From Clostridiales bacterium DTU070 (GTDB lineage: Bacteria > Bacillota > Clostridia > DSM-8532): DNA of 33,840 nucleotides. The notes below the pieces were generated by a model that was not told the DNA's origin, did no database searches, and was given only the letters and a program-made list of their open reading frames with translations. Positions 4,209-33,840 of this stretch are shown here, piece after piece; within the stretch, counting starts at the first letter, position 1, and every line of letters starts with the position of its first letter. The stretch spans positions 1 to 33,840 of the forward strand of contig LFSH01000012.1 in NCBI GenBank assembly GCA_001513105.1. Reading direction: 5' to 3'. A program made the translations under genes and the position numbers.

Positions 4209-5453
4209 TTACAGGAGGGCGGACATCATCTTGAAGTCCTCGGTGACTCCCCCGGTGATTGGAGCCAGGCCCGAATTGATAAAAACAGATCTGACCACCG
4301 ACTTCGGCCCGTATTTCATCCGTATTTCGTCAATGGACTGGTTCAAACGTTTTCTTCTCTCGTTTGGAACATCAAACACCGATATCTGAAGCAGATCATT
4401 CGGAACCAGCTCCGAAACGTGAACACCCATTCCGCGCAGTGTTTCTCCCGTCCACATTTCCTCCATCAGTTGCAAAGCAAGGCGGAATATTTGATATGTG
4501 TCATCGGTGGCGCCGATATATTTCCTTTGGTGGGATCTGCCCTTCAGGTCGGTATTCCTGAGATATACAGAAACCAGTTTTGCACAGTAGCCGGCCTGGC
4601 GCAGCCTCATGCCGACCATTTCACACAGCGACAAAAGCACTTTCCTGGCTTCATCCATTGAATCAACATCAAAGGGGATTGTGGTTGAATTTCCGATGCC
4701 CTTGATCGGCGGGCGGGCATCCTCGGAAACCGGACTGCTTTCTATGCCGTTGGCATAGTCCCGGATCAGCTTGCCCCAGCTTTTGAGATGATACGTCAGT
4801 AAATCAGGGTTTGCCCGCGCCAAATCCCCGATTGTGAAAATATTAAGGCGGTACAGCTTCGGTGCGGTGGCAGGACCTACCATAAAAAGCTCGCGAACGG
4901 GCAGCGGCCACATTTTTTCCCTTATTTCGCAGGGGAACAGGGTATGGACCATATCGGGCTTTTTCAATTCACTGGCCATTTTGGCCAGAAGTTTGTTGGT
5001 GGATATGCCCACGTTAACGGTGAACCCCAGTTCCTTCTTTATCCTGTCTTTCAGCTTATGGGCCGCCTCCACGGGATCGCCGTGGACGTGCTCCATGCCC
5101 GTATAATCAAGGAAGGCCTCGTCAATACTGTATACCTGTATATTTGGCGAGAAATCACGCATGATGTTTATCATCGCGTTATGGCACATCATGTAGAGCT
5201 CGTATCGAACGGGAACCACGGTCAGGTTGGGGCATTTTTTTCGGGCAGTATACAGGGCTTCACCGGTTTTTATCGAATATTTTTTTGCAGGAATGCTCCT
5301 GGCCAGTACAATACCATGACGGCTCTGCTCGTCCCCGCCGACAACCGACGGTATGTCACGCAGGTCGACAGTATCGCCCCTTTGAAGGCGATACGCAGCT
5401 TCCCAGCTTAAATAAGCGCTGTTGGCGTCAACATGCATTATAATTCTGTCCAT
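4209..5453 (-). CDS. dinB: Y-family DNA polymerase (Pol IV/DinB type)
   Basis: 414 aa, typical for Y-family translesion polymerases. It copies past DNA lesions with low fidelity. The first catalytic Asp is Asp9 in HVDANSAY, and the second acidic pair is Asp111-Glu112 in YSIDEAFLDYTG. The helix-hairpin-helix 'thumb' part follows (RELFMVGPATAPKLYRLNIFTIGDLA), then the little-finger domain (KGIGNSTTIPFDVDS onwards). HVDANSAYLSWEA differs from the usual FASVE steric-gate region and is of a form common in clostridial paralogues. No beta-clamp peptide was identified with confidence at the C-terminus. A GGGGGG site lies upstream of the ATG. A perfect LexA box lies inside its promoter, so it should be SOS-induced. 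The gene is single and convergent with the SDR gene. Confidence 0.93.
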   Translation of the reverse strand: MDRIIMHVDANSAYLSWEAAYRLQRGDTVDLRDIPSVVGGDEQSRHGIVLARSIPAKKYSIKTGEALYTARKKCPNLTVVPVRYELYMMCHNAMINIMRDFSPNIQVYSIDEAFLDYTGMEHVHGDPVEAAHKLKDRIKKELGFTVNVGISTNKLLAKMASELKKPDMVHTLFPCEIREKMWPLPVRELFMVGPATAPKLYRLNIFTIGDLARANPDLLTYHLKSWGKLIRDYANGIESSPVSEDARPPIKGIGNSTTIPFDVDSMDEARKVLLSLCEMVGMRLRQAGYCAKLVSVYLRNTDLKGRSHQRKYIGATDDTYQIFRLALQLMEEMWTGETLRGMGVHVSELVPNDLLQISVFDVPNERRKRLNQSIDEIRMKYGPKSVVRSVFINSGLAPITGGVTEDFKMMSALL

Positions 5454-22825: not shown

Positions 22826-24475
22826 ATGAGAAAAAAAGTACTGATTGTGGGCGGGGTAGCCGGAGGAGCCTCTGCTGCTGCAAGGCTCAGAAGGTTGGAT
22901 GAACATGCAGAGATAATAATATTTGAAAAGGACCGTTACATATCATATGCCAATTGCGGGTTGCCATATTACATAGGTGAAGTAATAAAGGACAGGGACG
23001 ATCTTATCGTACAGAGCGCTGAAGACATGAAAATACGGTTCAATATTGATGTAAGAACAGAAAGCGAAGTTACAGGCATAAATCCCGGTGACAGGAATGT
23101 CACGGTAAAAAATAAATCAGGAGATCTTTACACTGAAAATTATGACTATCTGATCCTTTCACCGGGGGCAAGGGCGTTTAAACCCGCCATTCCCGGGATA
23201 AACAGTGATAAAGTCCTGAGTTTAAGGAATATCTCCGACACAGATGCCATTAAGTCGCTGGTGGACGAAAAGGGCATGAAAAGTGCGGTTGTCATAGGCG
23301 GCGGGTTTATCGGCGTTGAAATTGCCGAAAACCTCATACAAAGGGGAGTGGCTGTAACACTTGTTGAGCTTGCCGGTCAAGTACTCGCCCAGTTTGACGA
23401 GGACATGGCTGCCATACTGGAAAATGAGCTGGCTAAAAACGGTGTTAATCTTATGCTGAATACATCGGTAACAGCTGTTGATGAAAAGGGAGACGGCCTT
23501 GAACTTACTTTATCGACCGGTGAAAAGATTAGCGCCGATTTTGTTGTGGTTGGAGCAGGCGTGATACCCGACACCGATTTCCTGAAAGGCAGCGGAATTG
23601 AGCTTGGCCTAAGAGGGCATATAATTGTAAATGAGAAGATGCAGACGAATATCAGGGATATTTACGCAGTCGGCGATGCCATTGAAGTGGTTGATTTTGT
23701 CAACGGCAAAAAGACCGCAATACCCTTGGCCGGACCTGCAAACAAACAGGGCAGGATAGCCGCTGATAATATAGCAGGGCTGAATTCAGTGTATAAAGGT
23801 TCCCAGGGCAGTTCAATAATCAAGGTATTCAACCTTACCGCCGCTTGCACCGGCAATAACGAAAGGACGCTGAAACGCCTTGATATGCCCTATAAAGCAA
23901 TTTACGTACATCCCATGTCCCATGCTTCCTATTATCCCGGTGCAACGCAGATGACTGTAAAGCTGCTGTTCGATGATCAGGGCAAAGTTCTGGGTGCGCA
24001 GGCAATAGGCCATGAAGGAGTGGACAAAAGAATTGACGTTATCGCAACGGTCATACGCCTGAACGGTACCGTTAACGATATGGCAGAGCTGGAGCTTTCA
24101 TATGCACCTCCGTATTCTTCCGCAAAGGATCCTGTCAACGTTGCGGGATTTGTCGCACAGAACTGTCTGAACGGGATATCGCACCTTATAACCTGGGATG
24201 ACTTCGAAAAACTTAATAGAGAGGATTACGTACTCGTTGACGTAAGAACCCGTTCGGAATACAGAAGAGGACACATCGAAGGAGCCATTAACATACCTGT
24301 TGACGAGTTAAGGGAAAGACTTGATGAACTTGACAGGGAGAAGACAATTGTCGTATACTGCCAGGTTGGTTTCCGCGGTTACCTTGCCGACAGGATACTC
24401 AGCCAGAACGGCTACAATGTGTTGAATATAACAGGAGGATTCAGGTCAGAACTTGCAAGGCGCGTGAAAAAATAA
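22826..24475 (+). CDS. CoA-disulfide reductase with C-terminal rhodanese domain
   Basis: 549 aa, the usual size of CoADR-rhodanese fusions. The FAD motif is VLIVGGVAGGASAAARLRRL (residues 5-24). The redox-active Cys44 in SYANCGLPYYIG is diagnostic for CoA-disulfide reductase and persulfide reductase. The NAD(P)H motif is SAVVIGGGFIGVEIAENL, and the second FAD motif is DIYAVGDAIEV. The rhodanese part starts at about residue 465 (YVLVDVRTRSEYRRGHIEGAINIP) and has active Cys512 in CQVGFRG. It reduces CoA disulfide or CoA persulfide and handles sulfane sulfur, serving thiol balance or polysulfide use. CGGGGTGA upstream supports 22826. The 3' end is 12 nt from a repeat-like element discussed below. 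Confidence 0.93.
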   Translation: MRKKVLIVGGVAGGASAAARLRRLDEHAEIIIFEKDRYISYANCGLPYYIGEVIKDRDDLIVQSAEDMKIRFNIDVRTESEVTGINPGDRNVTVKNKSGDLYTENYDYLILSPGARAFKPAIPGINSDKVLSLRNISDTDAIKSLVDEKGMKSAVVIGGGFIGVEIAENLIQRGVAVTLVELAGQVLAQFDEDMAAILENELAKNGVNLMLNTSVTAVDEKGDGLELTLSTGEKISADFVVVGAGVIPDTDFLKGSGIELGLRGHIIVNEKMQTNIRDIYAVGDAIEVVDFVNGKKTAIPLAGPANKQGRIAADNIAGLNSVYKGSQGSSIIKVFNLTAACTGNNERTLKRLDMPYKAIYVHPMSHASYYPGATQMTVKLLFDDQGKVLGAQAIGHEGVDKRIDVIATVIRLNGTVNDMAELELSYAPPYSSAKDPVNVAGFVAQNCLNGISHLITWDDFEKLNREDYVLVDVRTRSEYRRGHIEGAINIPVDELRERLDELDREKTIVVYCQVGFRGYLADRILSQNGYNVLNITGGFRSELARRVKK

Positions 24476-24486
24476 TAAGTTATTTG

Positions 24487-24598
24487 CATATGAATCTAAT
24501 CATTTATGGAATGTAAATTAATAGTTTTTTATTAATTCCCGATTCTTAAATCTATCCATCATGGAAAGCAAATACATTGAAAATGTATTTGCTTTTTT
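24487..24598 (+). ncRNA. Candidate crRNA-like regulatory RNA (CreR/CreA type)
   Basis: A degenerate copy of the 30-nt array repeat lies at 24487-24518 (26 of 30 repeat positions kept, 2 nt inserted; the 3' end TGGAATGTAAAT is intact). A 25-nt spacer-like segment (24519-24543) follows. A weaker copy at 24544-24573 keeps 19 of the last 25 positions, beginning AATCTATCC and ending AAAT. Cas6 cutting of the first copy would leave the 8-nt handle ATGTAAAT plus a guide. The guide starts TAATAGTTTTTTATT. The minus strand of the cas leader reads TAATAATTTTTAATT after CCA, so only positions 6 and 12 differ in 15. The RNA would end at the terminator at 24565-24598. It has no clear promoter of its own and may come from the 3' end of the preceding mRNA. 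Confidence 0.72.
24565..24598 (+). terminator. Intrinsic terminator after the CoA-disulfide-reductase gene and crRNA-like element
   Basis: AAAGCAAATACATT (24565-24578) pairs perfectly with AATGTATTTGCTTT (24582-24595), followed by T3. Its 5' arm shares 24565-24573 with the second degenerate repeat. Confidence 0.92.
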
Positions 24599-24660
24599 AT
24601 TTAGGCTGCCGTAATCTGACCGACCATTGTGTTAAAATAAAACAAAAAAGATAAAAAATA

Positions 24661-24689
24661 TTGACAGCCAAGAAAATATATATTAAAAT
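24661..24689 (+). promoter_or_regulatory. Promoter of the cas operon
   Basis: Consensus TTGACA (24661-24666), exactly 17 nt, then TAAAAT (24684-24689). Transcription should start near 24696 and give a leader of about 53 nt to cas6. It is one of the strongest promoters by sequence in the window, which fits a need for repression. Confidence 0.85.
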
Positions 24690-24691
24690 TT

Positions 24692-24727
24692 ATTTTAGAT
24701 TAAGTCCTGAATTAAAAATTATTATGG
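24692..24727 (-). promoter_or_regulatory. Proposed Cascade target site in the cas leader
   Basis: The minus strand reads CCA (24725-24727, PAM-like, as in clostridial I-B systems) followed by a protospacer-like stretch from 24724 leftwards. It matches the spacer-like segment at 24519 in 13 of the first 15 positions. The mismatches are at 6 and 12; beyond that the match is patchy. Bound Cascade would cover the transcription start just after the -10 box. Confidence 0.65.
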
Positions 24728-24748: not shown

Positions 24749-25462
24749 ATGAGATTTAAACTGAAATTTGAACTGGGAAAGAATGAAATCCCCTGCGACT
24801 ACAGGCCTTTTGTTTTATCATTTCTGAAATACTCCATATCCCACTATGACCGGACATTATATCAAAGCCTTTATGAAAGTGGCACAATACCTAAAAAATA
24901 TACTTTTTCTGTTTGGCTGGATACACCTGTTTTTCAGGCAGAAGCAATACAACTGGGTAACAATCGGCTGTATATTCAGTTTTCAACCGGGGATACAGTT
25001 CTTGGCATACATATGTACAATGCATTTGTAAAAATGAAAAAGAAAGAATTCAGCATACCGTTTGATAACACGCTTCTGCTAAAAGAAATCCAGCTTATAC
25101 CTGAAAAAATCATCACAGACAGAAAAATATTCGCTCAGTTTATTTCACCGCTGATTGTTCGTTCACATACAGAAAATAAAGACTTTTATTACAGCGTTGC
25201 TCACTCTGAATTTAAAGAGGAACTAATGAAAACACTCCATTATCAGCTTGAAATACTAAACGACCTGCCATTGTCTATACTGGAAGATTTCCGAATAACT
25301 CCAATTAAGCCACAAAAGACAGTGGTACAGTTTTATGGTCAGTACATGGAAGCAACATTGGGAACCTTTGAGATGGAAGGGGATCCTGTTTTGTTGGATT
25401 ACTTCTATAAGCATGGGATAGGCAGCAAACGCAGCTGCGGGTTTGGCATGCTCGCCATTTGA
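24749..25462 (+). CDS. cas6: CRISPR repeat endoribonuclease Cas6
   Basis: 237 aa, standard for Cas6. It cuts the array transcript within repeats to give crRNAs with an 8-nt 5' handle. The C-terminus shows the diagnostic Gly-rich loop GIGSKRSCGFGMLAI. The N-terminal ferredoxin-like half contains candidate active-site residues (His33 in YSISHYDRTLYQ, Tyr nearby), which cannot be assigned without alignment. AAGGAGGTG (24732-24740) lies 8 nt before the ATG. It is the first gene of the cas operon and overlaps the start region of cas8b. It is the likely processor of the repeat-like element upstream. Confidence 0.93.
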   Translation: MRFKLKFELGKNEIPCDYRPFVLSFLKYSISHYDRTLYQSLYESGTIPKKYTFSVWLDTPVFQAEAIQLGNNRLYIQFSTGDTVLGIHMYNAFVKMKKKEFSIPFDNTLLLKEIQLIPEKIITDRKIFAQFISPLIVRSHTENKDFYYSVAHSEFKEELMKTLHYQLEILNDLPLSILEDFRITPIKPQKTVVQFYGQYMEATLGTFEMEGDPVLLDYFYKHGIGSKRSCGFGMLAI

Positions 25463-25479
25463 GAGAGGAGGTGAAATTG

Positions 25480-27168
25480 TTGGCATTGGAACATGTAACC
25501 ATAACACTGAAAGATTTCTTGTTCAACGCAGGAATATGCGGGTTTGTTAAGGTATTGCAGCAGGAAGGTTTTGATCTTGAAGAGCAGGATAAAGGCAATG
25601 CAATACAGGTTCCTGTATCATTGCTTGAAAACTTCCACGATGCATACATAAAGACAATGCTGAATAGTTTCCAGAAAGATACATTATATCAAAGCCTTAT
25701 TAATCAGTATGATCAATTCGCCAGATCAAAACCTGAAGATATATCTCCGGAGGATTATAATGATTTTATAAAAAAATTATGCAACAAACTAACAAGTGCA
25801 AGCTACAAATCAGGATATCATATAATATCCGAAAACGGCGACAACTTTGATGTTCTTACCCGCGTGAAAGAGTTGAAAGAAGAAAAAGAAATCATCAAAT
25901 CGCTGAATGTTTGCCATGACTTAATTCAATATATGAAAAAGCATCGTGAGACTCTTTGCATGAAAGATATCATATATACAAAGATAAATCTGTTTTGGCA
26001 GGGTATTGCTTTTTTAAACAGCTCAAATTCTAAAAAGGACATAAAAGAATGCTATTACAAGGACTTTGTTAAGCCTGCATTAGATTATCTGGAAAAAAAG
26101 AATAAAGGTTCAATGCAATGCATTCAATGCGGGAACCCGATAAATACATCCATTGGAAGGGGTATGTCATGGCTTAACGATGTGGGTATTGATATAGCAC
26201 GAAAACGGTCTCATTATTGGAATTTCAATCCGGATACTTATATATGCCCAATATGTGCATTGGTATATTCGTGCGTTCCGCTTGGATTTACCATAGTTGG
26301 TTCAGAAGCAATCTTTATTAACAACAACGAAAGCATCCATGAGTTGATTGCTGAAAAAGATATTTTTGAACTTGGCGGAGAGAAATACAGCACATTGAAC
26401 CAACTATACTATGAGGTTTTGTATTCATTTATTGATGATGCAGCCCAGGAACAAACAAAAGAAATTCAAAACATTCAGATTATAAGAAGAATTCCTTACG
26501 ATCAAGAATCCTGGAAGTATGCTTTCAACACACTTTCAAAGCCCTTGTTGGAGGTACTTCGTGCATGCAGGAGAAATTTCAGGCATTTACTGAAATGGTC
26601 ATTTAAAAAAGACAAGGACACCTATGTTAATGTGTACCAGGAAGTTGCAGATAATTTCTTTTCAGGCAGAAATCAGTATTCACTGGTACATCTTATTCTG
26701 CAAAAAGTTTTCACTGATAATCTAAAAGCTCCGTATGTAAAGGACATTCTGGAAATTCAAAGACGCAGAATGAGAAGATTTTATTCAGAAGAAGGAGGTA
26801 GTGCGGTAATGTATATAAGCGATAAGGAATTTAATGCTACCTATGCAGAAGGTACAAGAATTCGCGAACAGTATGCAAGGACAATTTCTGAAGAAAAAGA
26901 CAAAGACGCAAAAATCAATGATAGTTTACGCTCCTTTGTTTATCCTTTGCTGCTCTCATTAAAAACCAAAGATAAGGCAAGATTTAATGACACAATGTTC
27001 CGCTTCTATGTAGGCAGAAGTGAATCAATTCCCAGGATCCTTATTGAAATGCAGCAGAATGATGAAAAATTTCAGCTACTGGGTTATACATTTATAGCGG
27101 GTCTCTATGGTAAAAACCTGGATTCTGAAAAAAACAATGAAACACAAATAAATGAGGAGGTAAAATAA
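25480..27168 (+). CDS. cas8b: Type I-B Cascade large subunit Cas8b (Cst1 family)
   Basis: 562 aa from TTG at 25480. AGGAGGTG (25466-25473) lies 6 nt upstream; TTG at 25477 and longer in-frame starts that overlap the cas6 end are less likely. The protein is the PAM-reading large subunit of the Tneap-type I-B complex. Visible features are a zinc-ribbon pair, Cys214-x2-Cys217 (CIQCGN) and Cys256-x2-Cys259 (CPICAL), conserved in Cst1, followed by VPLGFTIVGSEAIFINNNES. A basic helical part (RACRRNFRHLLKWSFKK) and the helix-rich C-terminal half come next. Cas8b proteins diverge strongly; the assignment rests on length, the zinc motif and position between cas6 and cas7. Confidence 0.88.
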   Translation: MALEHVTITLKDFLFNAGICGFVKVLQQEGFDLEEQDKGNAIQVPVSLLENFHDAYIKTMLNSFQKDTLYQSLINQYDQFARSKPEDISPEDYNDFIKKLCNKLTSASYKSGYHIISENGDNFDVLTRVKELKEEKEIIKSLNVCHDLIQYMKKHRETLCMKDIIYTKINLFWQGIAFLNSSNSKKDIKECYYKDFVKPALDYLEKKNKGSMQCIQCGNPINTSIGRGMSWLNDVGIDIARKRSHYWNFNPDTYICPICALVYSCVPLGFTIVGSEAIFINNNESIHELIAEKDIFELGGEKYSTLNQLYYEVLYSFIDDAAQEQTKEIQNIQIIRRIPYDQESWKYAFNTLSKPLLEVLRACRRNFRHLLKWSFKKDKDTYVNVYQEVADNFFSGRNQYSLVHLILQKVFTDNLKAPYVKDILEIQRRRMRRFYSEEGGSAVMYISDKEFNATYAEGTRIREQYARTISEEKDKDAKINDSLRSFVYPLLLSLKTKDKARFNDTMFRFYVGRSESIPRILIEMQQNDEKFQLLGYTFIAGLYGKNLDSEKNNETQINEEVK

Positions 27169-27169
27169 T

Positions 27170-28797
<1,628 letters not shown>

Positions 28798-28821
28798 AAA
28801 AATAAGAACAGGTGATAGTAT

Positions 28822-31173
28822 ATGGATAACTTGTTTCTTGCAAAATCATACCCCAGCCAGATAACACTATCTCAACATACCAATGAAATGCTTAAACTTG
28901 TAGATGAGTTGAGACAGTGTTTTCCTGAAATCCTGTCTGACAAGGAATGGGATATACTAAAACTTGCAATTATTCATCATGATATTGGAAAGATAAATGC
29001 CACATTCCAAAATAAGATTTATAAAAAAATAAAGAGAGACATTTTGTTAAAGGATGTGTTTGACGGATCCTTTGAAATACCACATGGATATTTAAGCACA
29101 TGCATGATTGATTATGAGAGGATAGAAAGAGAGTATGGTTTCTCAGGGGATGAAATAATGCTCCTTGCCAATTCCATATACTATCACCACTACAGAAAAG
29201 TGGAATATAATGACAATCAGTTAAGAAAGACACTGGAAGAAAATATTAAACCATATATCCCCAAGTTCAAGAATGATTTTGAGTTTGGTTTCATTGCCGA
29301 TGAGCCTGATTTTGAGAATGTAAATACAAAAGTGGATTTAGAAAGGCTGGCTAAGGCTAAGGATAAGGAGTTATATAATAAGTATATATTAATAAAAGGA
29401 TTGCTGAACCGTATAGACTATACAGCCAGTGCCGGGATAACCGAGATTGAGAGAAAACCGTTTGACGGTAATAACGAATCTGTAGATCAAAAAGTGATTA
29501 ATAAATATACAACAGGCGGTAATTCACTGGCAGATGTACAGAAGTATTTATATGAAAACAGAGACAAAAATATTATTCTTACCGCTTCTACAGGAATTGG
29601 AAAGACTGAGGGAGCTTTGCTTTGGATAGGACCGAACAAAGGATTTTATACTTTACCCTTAAGGGTAACAATTAATGCTATATATAACCGGATAAAGAGC
29701 GATACTGAAGAAAACTCATTGAATTATTCTCCGGTCGCTTTGCTGCATTCAGATTCATTGAGTGTTTATCTTGAAGAAACAGATTCTTACGAAACATCAA
29801 TTTATATGGATAGCGAGGCAAGGTTGTTTACAGCACCGTTGACTATTACCACCGTGGATCAGCTTTTCCGCTTTGTATTCCGCTACCATGGGTATGAGAT
29901 GATACCGGCTACGCTAAAGTATTCGAGAGTTGTTGTTGATGAAATTCAAATGTACTCTCCACCCATAATAGCCTGTATTTTATATGGATTGAGAGAAATA
30001 TACCGTTTGGGCGGAAAATTTCTTATAATGACTGCTACCATGCCAAAGATATTTATAAAAATTCTTGAAGAAAAGCTGAAAATGAAGGTATCCGAAGCAT
30101 TTGAGCTTCCCGAACCTTTTTTAAGGGACAGTAACAGAACAGACAAAGCAAAGCATTTTGTTAAATTACATGAGTCAGAATTGGATATTGGACAGATCGA
30201 AAAGGACAGTTTAAATCATAAAGTTCTTGTGATTGTAAATACTGTGGCAAAGGCGCAGGAAATCTACCAAAAACTAAATATAGAAAATAAATGGATGCTT
30301 CACAGTTTATATACAAGGGAACACAGAAGTATTCTTGAAAATAAGATTCTGAATTTTTCAAAGGAAAAGAATGCAAAAGGGATTTGGGTGTCTACTCAAA
30401 TAGTTGAAGCAAGCCTTGATATCGACTTTGACATTCTACATACCGAAATGTGTACTGTTGATAGTCTTTTTCAGCGTATGGGAAGAGTATTAAGAGGGAA
30501 AAACAGATTTCTTACAGAAAAAAGCCCTAATATTCATATATATTCTGAAAATGTATCAGGATGTGGCCATGTTATTAATAAAGAGATATATGAATTTTCT
30601 TTAAATGCTTTGAAAAAGCATTTAGATTCAGAGGGAAAGCAGATATTAACTGAAGAAGATAAGCAAAACATAATACGGAATGTTTATGATCCGGAATTGA
30701 ATCCTAAAATATTGGAGTCAGAATATTACAATGATATTTTGAGGAATATTATCTATTTGCAAAACATTCAGAATAAGCCATATCAAATAGAGAAAAACGA
30801 AACAAGATTCCGCGACATTACAAGTGAACTTGTTATACCCAGATCTATATATGAAGAGTTGGATAGTAAAGGTATATTACAACAAATGGAAGACAAGTTT
30901 GAAAAAACAGACTCAGCCGGGAAGAGACAAATACTTGACGATATTTTAAAACATACCATTTCGGTTTCTCACTTTTATGATAAGGAACTGTTGTCCAAAA
31001 CTGATAATGTTTTGCTGAAGGAAGCAGGCAAACGGGCATTTGCAGAAACAGGTATAAAAATATGTGATTGTCCTTATGACTTTGATGAAGAAGAGAAAAG
31101 AGGTCTGGGGCTTCGGCGGAAATTAACCAAAGAGGAAAAGGACAGGATCCAGACAGAAAGTTCCATGTGGTAA
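28822..31173 (+). CDS. cas3: CRISPR helicase-nuclease Cas3 (HD plus SF2 helicase)
   Basis: 783 aa, a single-chain Cas3 that degrades target DNA after recruitment by Cascade. The N-terminal HD nuclease shows LAIIHHDIGKIN (His52-His53-Asp54) and a second His cluster SIYYHHYRKVE. The helicase has Walker A TASTGIGKTEGALL (Lys261), the DExx box VVVDEIQMYSP (Asp373-Glu374), motif III MTATMPK, and motif VI FQRMGRVLRG. DEIQ is of the DExH/D type seen in I-B Cas3. The C-terminal part from about residue 590 is the accessory domain. An AGGTGATAG site lies about 8 nt before the ATG. It is 24 nt downstream of cas5. Confidence 0.95.
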   Translation: MDNLFLAKSYPSQITLSQHTNEMLKLVDELRQCFPEILSDKEWDILKLAIIHHDIGKINATFQNKIYKKIKRDILLKDVFDGSFEIPHGYLSTCMIDYERIEREYGFSGDEIMLLANSIYYHHYRKVEYNDNQLRKTLEENIKPYIPKFKNDFEFGFIADEPDFENVNTKVDLERLAKAKDKELYNKYILIKGLLNRIDYTASAGITEIERKPFDGNNESVDQKVINKYTTGGNSLADVQKYLYENRDKNIILTASTGIGKTEGALLWIGPNKGFYTLPLRVTINAIYNRIKSDTEENSLNYSPVALLHSDSLSVYLEETDSYETSIYMDSEARLFTAPLTITTVDQLFRFVFRYHGYEMIPATLKYSRVVVDEIQMYSPPIIACILYGLREIYRLGGKFLIMTATMPKIFIKILEEKLKMKVSEAFELPEPFLRDSNRTDKAKHFVKLHESELDIGQIEKDSLNHKVLVIVNTVAKAQEIYQKLNIENKWMLHSLYTREHRSILENKILNFSKEKNAKGIWVSTQIVEASLDIDFDILHTEMCTVDSLFQRMGRVLRGKNRFLTEKSPNIHIYSENVSGCGHVINKEIYEFSLNALKKHLDSEGKQILTEEDKQNIIRNVYDPELNPKILESEYYNDILRNIIYLQNIQNKPYQIEKNETRFRDITSELVIPRSIYEELDSKGILQQMEDKFEKTDSAGKRQILDDILKHTISVSHFYDKELLSKTDNVLLKEAGKRAFAETGIKICDCPYDFDEEEKRGLGLRRKLTKEEKDRIQTESSMW

Positions 31174-31199
31174 TTTGATACCATTTATAAGGGATGAGA

Positions 31200-31691
31200 A
31201 TGATGAAGATTACAGGAGTTATGGTAGAATACTATTTCATTTGCAAGAAGAAACTATGGTATTTTGCCAATCAGATTCAAATGGAAAATGAGCATGAAAA
31301 TGTATTGATAGGCAGAATGGTAGATGAAACTTCGTATATCCAGGAGAAAAAGAATATCCTTATTGATGGGACAATTAATATCGACTTTATACGAAAACAC
31401 AAGCAAATTCATGAAGTCAAAAAATCAAAAAGTATTGAAGAGGCAACTATCTGGCAGGTCAAGTATTATCTGTATTACCTTAAAAAACTTGGAATGGAAG
31501 ACATCAAGGGGGTAATCGATTATCCTTTGTTACGGAGAAACCTGATTGTAGAATTGGATGAAAATGATGAAGAAAAAATTGAAGAAGTAATCCGGGATAT
31601 TGAAAATATTGTTGCCATGCCTTCACCTCCTGCTGCTAATAAAATGAAAATATGCAGCAAATGTGCTTATTATGAGCTGTGTTTTATTTAG
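31200..31691 (+). CDS. cas4: CRISPR adaptation nuclease Cas4
   Basis: 163 aa, typical for Cas4. It trims pre-spacers and checks PAM and orientation with Cas1-Cas2. The four iron-sulfur Cys are visible: Cys15 (YFICKKKLW) and Cys152, Cys155, Cys161 (CSKCAYYELC). The nuclease core has IDFIRKHKQIHEVKKSKS, with Glu and Lys of the PD-(D/E)XK motif, and ATIWQVKYYLYYLKK, the QhxxY motif. The start at 31200 is preferred because AAGGGA ends at 31194; an ATG at 31194 overlaps it, and 31203 is possible. It lies 26 nt after cas3. Confidence 0.93.
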   Translation: MMKITGVMVEYYFICKKKLWYFANQIQMENEHENVLIGRMVDETSYIQEKKNILIDGTINIDFIRKHKQIHEVKKSKSIEEATIWQVKYYLYYLKKLGMEDIKGVIDYPLLRRNLIVELDENDEEKIEEVIRDIENIVAMPSPPAANKMKICSKCAYYELCFI

Positions 31692-31726
31692 TCAGCACCT
31701 GAATCAGATTCAAAGGAGGTATTCTT

Positions 31727-32719
31727 TTGAAAAGAACCTATTACATATTCAATAATGGCGAATTGAAAAGAAAGGATAACACATTAGAATTTTATCTTGA
31801 AGACGGCGGGAGAAAATCAATACCAATAGAACAGGTTAATGACATATATTGCTTCGGACAAATAAGTGTAAACTCGGCATTGTTAAACTTCCTGGCTTCC
31901 TGTCACGTTGCTGTTCACTGGTTTAATTATTATGGCTATTATTCAGGGACATTTTATCCGAGGGAGTATCTTGTATCAGGAAAACTTTTAGTTAAGCAGG
32001 TTGAACACTATATAAACTCAGATAAGCGTATTGTATTAGCCAGGGCATTCGTTGATGGGGCTTCAGCAAATATTTATCGTAACTTACGTTACTATAAAAA
32101 CAGGGGCAAGGATCTTTCAGAGATAATGGAAGAAATAGAGTATTTCAGAAATCAAATAAATGTGAATAATAGCATAGAATCTCTGATGGGTATTGAGGGT
32201 AACATCAGAAAAGTTTACTATTCAGCATGGAATGAAATTATTAACCAGGATATCCAGTTTGAGAAGCGAGTAAAAAGACCACCCGACAATATGATTAACA
32301 CCTTAATATCTTTCCTGAACACCATGCTTTATACAAAAACATTAAGTGAAATCTATAATACGCAGTTAAATCCTACCATCAGTTATTTGCATGAACCGGG
32401 AACCAGTAGGTTTTCGCTTAGTCTTGACATATCAGAAGTATTTAAACCATTAATTGTCGACAGGCTGATTTTCTCGCTTCTTAACAAGAATCAAATAAAT
32501 GAAAACAGCTTTTACAAAGATACGGAATTATTGCAACTTAAGGAATCGGCAATAAAAACAATTGTTGCTGAACTGGATCTGCGTCTAAAACAGACAATAG
32601 AGCATCGGGAATTAAGACGCTCCGTTTCATACTTAAGATTAATCAGGCTTGAAGCATATAAACTTGTAAAGCATTTGCTGGAAGAAAAAATGTATGAACC
32701 ATTTAAAATCTGGTGGTGA
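31727..32719 (+). CDS. cas1: CRISPR integrase Cas1
   Basis: 330 aa. It integrates new spacers at the leader end of the array. The start is a TTG at 31727, as AAAGGAGG (31712-31719) lies 7 nt upstream and no ATG is in frame nearby. The N-terminal beta domain (KRTYYIFNNGELKRKDNTL, IEQVNDIYCFG, HVAVHWFNYYGYYSGTFYP) is classical. The metal ligands are Glu157 (MGIEGNIRKVYY), His222 (SYLHEPGT) and Asp234 (SLSLDISEVFKP), all intact. It is followed by cas2 after 9 nt. Confidence 0.96.
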   Translation: MKRTYYIFNNGELKRKDNTLEFYLEDGGRKSIPIEQVNDIYCFGQISVNSALLNFLASCHVAVHWFNYYGYYSGTFYPREYLVSGKLLVKQVEHYINSDKRIVLARAFVDGASANIYRNLRYYKNRGKDLSEIMEEIEYFRNQINVNNSIESLMGIEGNIRKVYYSAWNEIINQDIQFEKRVKRPPDNMINTLISFLNTMLYTKTLSEIYNTQLNPTISYLHEPGTSRFSLSLDISEVFKPLIVDRLIFSLLNKNQINENSFYKDTELLQLKESAIKTIVAELDLRLKQTIEHRELRRSVSYLRLIRLEAYKLVKHLLEEKMYEPFKIWW

Positions 32720-32728
32720 TATCATAAA

Positions 32729-33007
32729 ATGTATATTATACTTGTATATGACATTGTGTTGGATGAAACAGGTCCTGCTGTTTTAAGAAAGGTTTTTAAA
32801 GAATGCAAAAAATACCTTGTTCATATTCAGAATTCAGTATTCGAAGGAGAATTGTCAGAAGCTCAGCTTTTTAAGTTGGAAGTAGCGTTAAAGAAGCTTC
32901 TGAGAAAGGACAGAGATTCATTGATTGTGTTTAAGACGAGAAATGAAAAATGGCTGGATAAAGAATTTTGGGGTAAAGAAGATGATGCTACTTCGAACTT
33001 CATTTAA
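32729..33007 (+). CDS. cas2: CRISPR adaptation protein Cas2
   Basis: 92 aa, the normal size. It forms a dimer that bridges two Cas1 dimers. The beginning MYIILVYDIVLDETGPAVLRKVFKECKKYL holds the YDI strand with the conserved Asp, and HIQNSVFEGELSE is the family's second motif. It is the last cas gene of the operon, 9 nt after cas1, and its stop lies 180 nt before the first repeat of the array. Confidence 0.95.
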   Translation: MYIILVYDIVLDETGPAVLRKVFKECKKYLVHIQNSVFEGELSEAQLFKLEVALKKLLRKDRDSLIVFKTRNEKWLDKEFWGKEDDATSNFI

Positions 33008-33186: not shown

Positions 33187-33840
33187 CATAGAATCTAACC
33201 AGTGTGGAATGTAAATAAAAATCACTTAAAATTAAATGATAATGGATATTTACATAGAATCTAACCAGTGTGGAATGTAAATGCATTAAAACTGAAGGAA
33301 GTAAAATTTATTTCAGACCATAGAATCTAACCAGTGTGGAATGTAAATACGCCCTTGTCAGCTTGGTCTACCTGGGATACAAGCATAGAATCTAACCAGT
33401 GTGGAATGTAAATGGCTTCCATCTCGGTCATTTGGTCTGGTTGCGTCACATAGAATCTAACCAGTGTGGAATGTAAATATCCACTTGCCTTTGCTATGTC
33501 GGCAGAACGTCTCCATAGAATCTAACCAGTGTGGAATGTAAATATATACGGAGCATACCTTTAAGATTACCGGGGCTGACATAGAATCTAACCAGTGTGG
33601 AATGTAAATGTAATAACAATATACACATAAGAACGGCTATAAGAACATAGAATCTAACCAGTGTGGAATGTAAATGTGTGCAAATACATTTAAGGCTATT
33701 GTGCCCTCTCCCCATAGAATCTAACCAGTGTGGAATGTAAATAATTTCCCATCCTGGATAGTAATTTTACTACCAAATCATAGAATCTAACCAGTGTGGA
33801 ATGTAAATGCGACTTGGATATGGAGAAATACTCATTAAGG
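33187..33840 (+). CRISPR. Type I-B CRISPR array, ten repeats, runs off the window
   Basis: Ten identical 30-nt repeats start at 33187, 33253, 33319, 33384, 33449, 33514, 33580, 33646, 33713 and 33779. Each begins CATAGAATCTAACCAG and ends TGGAATGTAAAT. The nine complete spacers are 36, 36, 35, 35, 35, 36, 36, 37 and 36 nt; a tenth is cut by the window end. The 3' octamer ATGTAAAT is the expected crRNA handle. Orientation is the same as the cas genes. No repeat is degenerate, so the trailer end lies outside. Confidence 0.99.

Follow-up and report, generated by a model that had tools for sequence, protein, structure and literature searches.

The window analysed, a stretch of 33,840 nucleotides making up contig positions 1 to 33,840 of LFSH01000012.1 from Clostridiales bacterium DTU070, carries a complete type I-B cas operon with a predicted promoter and a downstream CRISPR array (Table 1). 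The operon is presumed to be both the regulated operon and the source of Cascade in what follows. Between the operon and the gene upstream of it lies a unit of two degenerate array repeats, psiR1 and psiR2, that flank a short guide segment, psiS. An earlier note on this DNA had located the two repeats, the guide, a target in the cas leader and an adjoining CCA triplet, and all of its coordinates proved correct when rechecked in the sequence.

Table 1. Features of the cas locus and of the repeat unit upstream of it (window positions).
Feature	Position	Strand	Remarks
CoA-disulfide-reductase-like gene	ends 24475		identity from reading frame only
Promoter-like TTGACA-18-TATACT within the CoA-disulfide-reductase-like gene	24330-24359	+	11/12 match
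psiR1, degenerate CRISPR repeat	24487-24518	+	3′ 12 nt (24507-24518) identical to array repeat
5′ handle ATGTAAAT	24511-24518	+	left by predicted Cas6 cut in psiR1
psiS, 25-nt guide segment	24519-24543	+	of nt 1-15, all but positions 6 and 12 pair with cas leader
psiR2, second degenerate repeat	24544-24573	+	3′ end supplies the 5′ arm of the terminator hairpin
Predicted intrinsic terminator	24564-24600	+	15-bp stem, 3-nt loop, followed by T run
Predicted cas promoter	24661-24689	+	TTGACA 24661-24666, 17 nt, TAAAAT 24684-24689
Guide target in cas leader	24710-24724	-	between -10 box and Shine-Dalgarno sequence
CCA protospacer-adjacent motif (PAM)	24725-24727	-	adjoins target
Type I-B operon cas6-cas8b1-cas7-cas5-cas3-cas4-cas1-cas2	24749-33007	+	complete in window
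CRISPR array, 10 repeats of CATAGAATCTAACCAGTGTGGAATGTAAAT	33187-33808	+	reaches near contig end

The 3′ terminal 12 nt of psiR1, TGGAATGTAAAT, match the end of the array repeat exactly. The second copy, psiR2 (CATGGAAAGCAAAT), is more degenerate and is altered where psiR1 keeps these last 12 nt. The length of psiS falls short of that of the array spacers, which measure 35-37 nt. A stringent repeat pattern, ATCTAAYCAN{2,5}TGGAATGTAAA, identified the ectopic psiR1 as its sole match outside the array in the whole genome. The hairpin that begins in psiR2 was predicted by folding (z -2.8 for the whole RNA) but was not listed by a pattern scan, probably owing to its low G+C content; it is predicted to form the 3′ end of both the guide-bearing RNA and the mRNA of the upstream gene. 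No curated RNA family in Rfam was matched by the element at thresholds up to E=1.

The start of psiR1 lies 11 nt past the stop codon of the CoA-disulfide-reductase-like gene, which leaves no room for a separate intergenic promoter, and no clear promoter was seen in the window immediately 5′ of psiR1. The promoter-like site within the reductase gene belongs to a class of which two were found and about two were expected by chance; whether it drives the RNA, as an alternative to an origin in the 3′ UTR of the reductase mRNA, is uncertain.

The guide and its target covary in close relatives

The guide TAATAGTTTTTTATT (24519-24533) differs from the target TAATAATTTTTAATT only at positions 6 and 12, and the target sits about 20 nt downstream of the cas -10 box. 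The earlier note had called attention to this 13/15 match with its CCA triplet, while cautioning that part of it could be due to chance in A+T-rich DNA. The match held up against shuffling: about 0.1% of shuffled guides equalled the observed score in this leader (P ~0.001). In pattern searches, the PAM and seed together, CCN+TAATANTTTTTNATT, had an expectation of 0.00 in the window and occurred once in the whole 2.9-Mb genome, at the cas leader site. Moreover, none of 1620 dinucleotide-shuffled upstream regions joined a repeat end (≤1 mismatch) with a guide score of at least 13/14. Single pairs in sequences this rich in A+T are weak alone and the case is comparative; the caution is countered by genome-wide uniqueness together with covariation in more than 20 loci.

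The element is kept upstream of cas6 in G001 (locus L014) and G002 (L018), which belong to the same genus and have cas6 76% and 74% identical to that of the window, and in L017. Guides were compared as the sequence following the 8-nt handle. The guide of L017 is again TAATAGTTTTTTATT, with the target CCA-TAATATTTTTTGATT, and within the first 15 positions this target differs from the window's, CCA-TAATAATTTTTAATT, at positions 6 and 12 only. In G002 the guide ATAATAGTTTTTTATA faces CCA-ATAATAGTTTTATATA, and in G001 the guide ATAATAATTTTTTAT faces CCC-ATAATAATTTTTTAT. A G shared by these guides stands at position 7 in G002, where the target also has G, and at position 6 in the window and L017, whose targets carry A and T there, respectively, and leave it unpaired. 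Because the same G is paired at 7 and unpaired at 6, the guide register is read from the handle. G001 has A at position 7 in both guide and target, a compensatory change relative to the G/G of G002; the base that needs pairing thus covaries in the relatives, and is freed once the register puts it at position 6.

The earlier note had proposed aligning related genomes, on the view that loci retaining the repeats without the match would speak against a functional pair. Such cases were sought and the opposite was found, as three close relatives and about 20 distant I-B loci keep both repeats and match, with guide and leader covarying. A further member of the genus, G003, whose cas6 is distant (34%), has no element. 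In L017 the DNA upstream of psiR1 is different and contains a terminator-like hairpin and a TTGACA-18-TACCAT site, indicating that the element travels with cas rather than with the reductase gene.

A survey of type I-B loci

The wider survey drew on a Cas7 profile search with one genome per species, plus the relatives, and comprised the 76 loci that had 120 nt or more of sequence before cas6. An element was called where the repeat end TGGAATGTAAA occurred upstream of cas6 with ≤1 mismatch, and a target where at least 13 of the 17 nt that follow agreed with a site next to CC in the leader of that locus; the target search was anchored on the cas6 end. A repeat end was present in 27 of the 76 loci and was accompanied in 23 of these by a CCN-flanked target in the locus's own leader. 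By comparison, none of the 128 handle-bearing cases obtained with 60 scrambled repeat ends had such a target, and guides whose start was displaced by -4 to +8 nt yielded 0-2. The search for repeat ends upstream of cas6 revealed no recognisable element in the other 49 loci, so that this type of element is not universal.

Guides fitted their own leaders at 12.8/13 positions on average and foreign leaders at 6.4/13 (0 in 100000 permutations). When targets were chosen without regard to the PAM, CCN was found at 23 of 24 (CCA 15, CCT 7, CCC 1; P ~3e-34) against a background CC frequency of 3%. Mismatches at guide positions 1-12 numbered 0, 0, 0, 0, 0, 11, 0, 0, 0, 0, 2 and 14, which places 25 of 27 at position 6 or 12 (P ~9e-18). 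The loci share ancestry, so these P-values overstate independence and are to be read as strong evidence rather than as literal probabilities. Pairing fades beyond position 17. Compensatory changes were also seen between L055 and L061, at positions 8 and 17. DNA recognition by type I Cascade is characterised by a CC PAM and by tolerance of a mismatch at each sixth base. The earlier note had invoked both, taking positions 6 and 12 to be free and CCA to be an accepted PAM, and the family bears it out on each point. The assignment of the PAM rests on this survey and on type I-B data from C. difficile, where CCN/YCN was measured and the repeat likewise ends in AAT (PMC8406132).

The elements vary in placement. 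Eighteen of the 23 are oriented divergently from cas; the target lies on the plus strand in 14 of the 23, in several cases ending at the -35 box. In eight divergent loci (L041, L042, L044, L049, L051, L055, L061 and L065) TGG(A/G)ATG is preceded, at a distance of exactly 12 nt, by a -10-like TATAAT or TATACT, a spacing from which transcription probably begins inside psiR1, here a half repeat that appears to be fused to a promoter. In L047 the element is on the cas strand about 400 nt upstream of cas6, with psiR at 5117 and the target at 5235, and has a perfect 17/17 match with CCT. Further guide-target pairs were found in another family (L101, L103 and L106). The region upstream of cas6 in L108-L115, from Clostridioides-sized genomes with type I-B repeats similar to those here, held no comparable element.

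A probable CreR-type regulator and the alternatives

The segment very probably encodes a CreR-type RNA that guides the system's own Cascade to repress the cas operon without cleavage, a reading that combines the sequence with analogy to known regulators. Expression, processing, repression and feedback are modelled on the published CreR class. A transcript would span psiR1-psiS-psiR2, Cas6 would cut in psiR1 to leave the handle ATGTAAAT, and either the terminator or psiR2 would fix the 3′ end. The RNA would load into the type I-B Cascade, and some 15 paired nucleotides, in three blocks with breaks at 6 and 12, would direct it with the CCA PAM to the cas leader. Bound just past the -10 box, with a footprint that would extend from the target toward this box and cover the start site, Cascade would block transcription of the operon. 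As pairing ends at about 15-17 nt, Cas3 cleavage would not be triggered; a partial match of this length with a 25-nt psiS fits binding without cleavage, and in the type I-B system of Haloarcula, spacers of ≤24 bp repressed and gave no interference (PMC10989794). As long as free Cascade is at hand, cas expression would be kept low; competition from crRNAs for Cascade, or the absence or inhibition of Cas6 or Cascade, would raise it. Feedback of this kind, with cas up when crRNAs or inhibitors occupy Cascade, appears in two accounts of CreR (PMC12737573, PMC13131331).

Pairing of the RNA with the cas mRNA leader by the Shine-Dalgarno sequence could block translation with no need for Cascade. Indeed, in the clade of the window, guide and cas mRNA are complementary beside the ribosome-binding site, with predicted duplexes of -10 kcal/mol in the window and -16 kcal/mol in G002 at 37 C. 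Such direct antisense action is nevertheless very unlikely, as it does not account for the CCN motif, for the freedom at positions 6 and 12 or for a register set by the handle; for the plus-strand targets, guide and mRNA are of the same sense and cannot pair, and the targets that end at the -35 box argue against it as well. The degenerate repeats and the short, A+T-rich match might also suggest a decayed mini-array with a chance match. The uniqueness of the site in the genome and the covariation over more than 20 loci reduce this to a negligible probability, and the covariation in relatives led to its rejection.

The RNA might instead be the CreA antitoxin of a CreTA module, repressing a small toxin gene, with the match to the cas leader secondary. 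CreA keeps the handle in psiR1 and has lost it in psiR2 (PMC9458426). The psiR1-psiS-psiR2 anatomy, this asymmetry between the repeats and the Cascade-guided repression proposed here are all alike. The guide's sole genomic match with a PAM is, however, the cas leader rather than a toxin promoter, the stretch from psiR2 to cas6 contains no ORF of 80 aa or longer, and no toxin was found. CreTA is accordingly highly improbable and membership was rejected, although a variant may exist in which the toxin is an RNA encoded in the cas leader.

The earlier note termed the arrangement Crota-like; this label is wrong, and the published class that fits a Cascade-guided repressor of cas is CreR. CreR, a cas-regulating RNA, was reportedly described by Liu et al. 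2023 (Cell Host Microbe 31:1481). The element shares with this class a degenerate repeat-guide-repeat unit near the cas operon, a partial guide match, with PAM, to its own cas promoter or leader, and a pairing preserved through covariation in relatives. PMC12737573 and PMC13131331 likewise describe a crRNA-like RNA that comes from a degenerate mini-CRISPR next to cas and partially matches the cas promoter or leader, and the latter reports CreR RNAs for types I-B, I-E and V-A. Unlike CreR as described there, the system here is a clostridial I-B with Cas8b1, the target is downstream of the -10 box, and in the genus of the window an unrelated gene carries the element in its 3′ UTR, psiR2 being joined to the terminator. 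The kind of element is thus already known; judged from the sequences, its unusual aspects are the apparent 3′-UTR location, the predicted terminator in psiR2 and the six-base footprint, clean throughout the family.

In type II systems, tracr-L brings about cas autorepression through a natural short guide. Autorepression by Cas9 is also covered in PMC13131331. The likeness to the present element is the autorepression of cas, and the difference is the Cas9 effector and another RNA architecture. Racr, the solitary-repeat RNA anti-CRISPRs of phages (PMC10651486), are also ectopic repeat mimics that enter Cas complexes, as is predicted here. Racr membership was rejected: in place of a solitary repeat on a mobile element, the window has a host-encoded unit in the cas locus, with two repeats and a guide that matches the cas leader.

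Implications and other features of the window

RNA-guided self-repression of cas appears to be common among the type I-B systems of clostridia, at about 30% of the 76 loci in the survey, and the host group includes thermophiles of industrial interest. The natural pairs record an evolutionary footprint of the way Cascade reads DNA, strict at positions 1-5 and 7-11, free at 6 and 12 and lost after about 17, and this supplies a simple rule by which more CreR genes can be found and repressive, non-cleaving guides designed. Deleting cas, adding arrays, or editing with the endogenous I-B system in these bacteria should alter cas expression. We also considered, as a rather unlikely extension, that the CreR RNA derives from the 3′ UTR of the CoA-disulfide-reductase mRNA and that its processing by Cas6 sets cas repression, which would couple immunity to redox or sulfur state. 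Since L017 has other upstream DNA with its own promoter-like site, the link to the reductase would be specific to the lineage of the window.

Elsewhere in the window, a SAM-type-riboswitch-like leader followed by a terminator, judged by eye alone, was noted at 600-780. Two degenerate copies of another repeat, GTTTTGAGCCTACCTATAAGGAATTGAAA, separated by a 37-nt spacer, occupy positions 82-176 and may form an isolated mini-array. The core of this repeat also occurs in small arrays on contigs C7, C40 and C45 of the same genome, which probably has a second CRISPR system.
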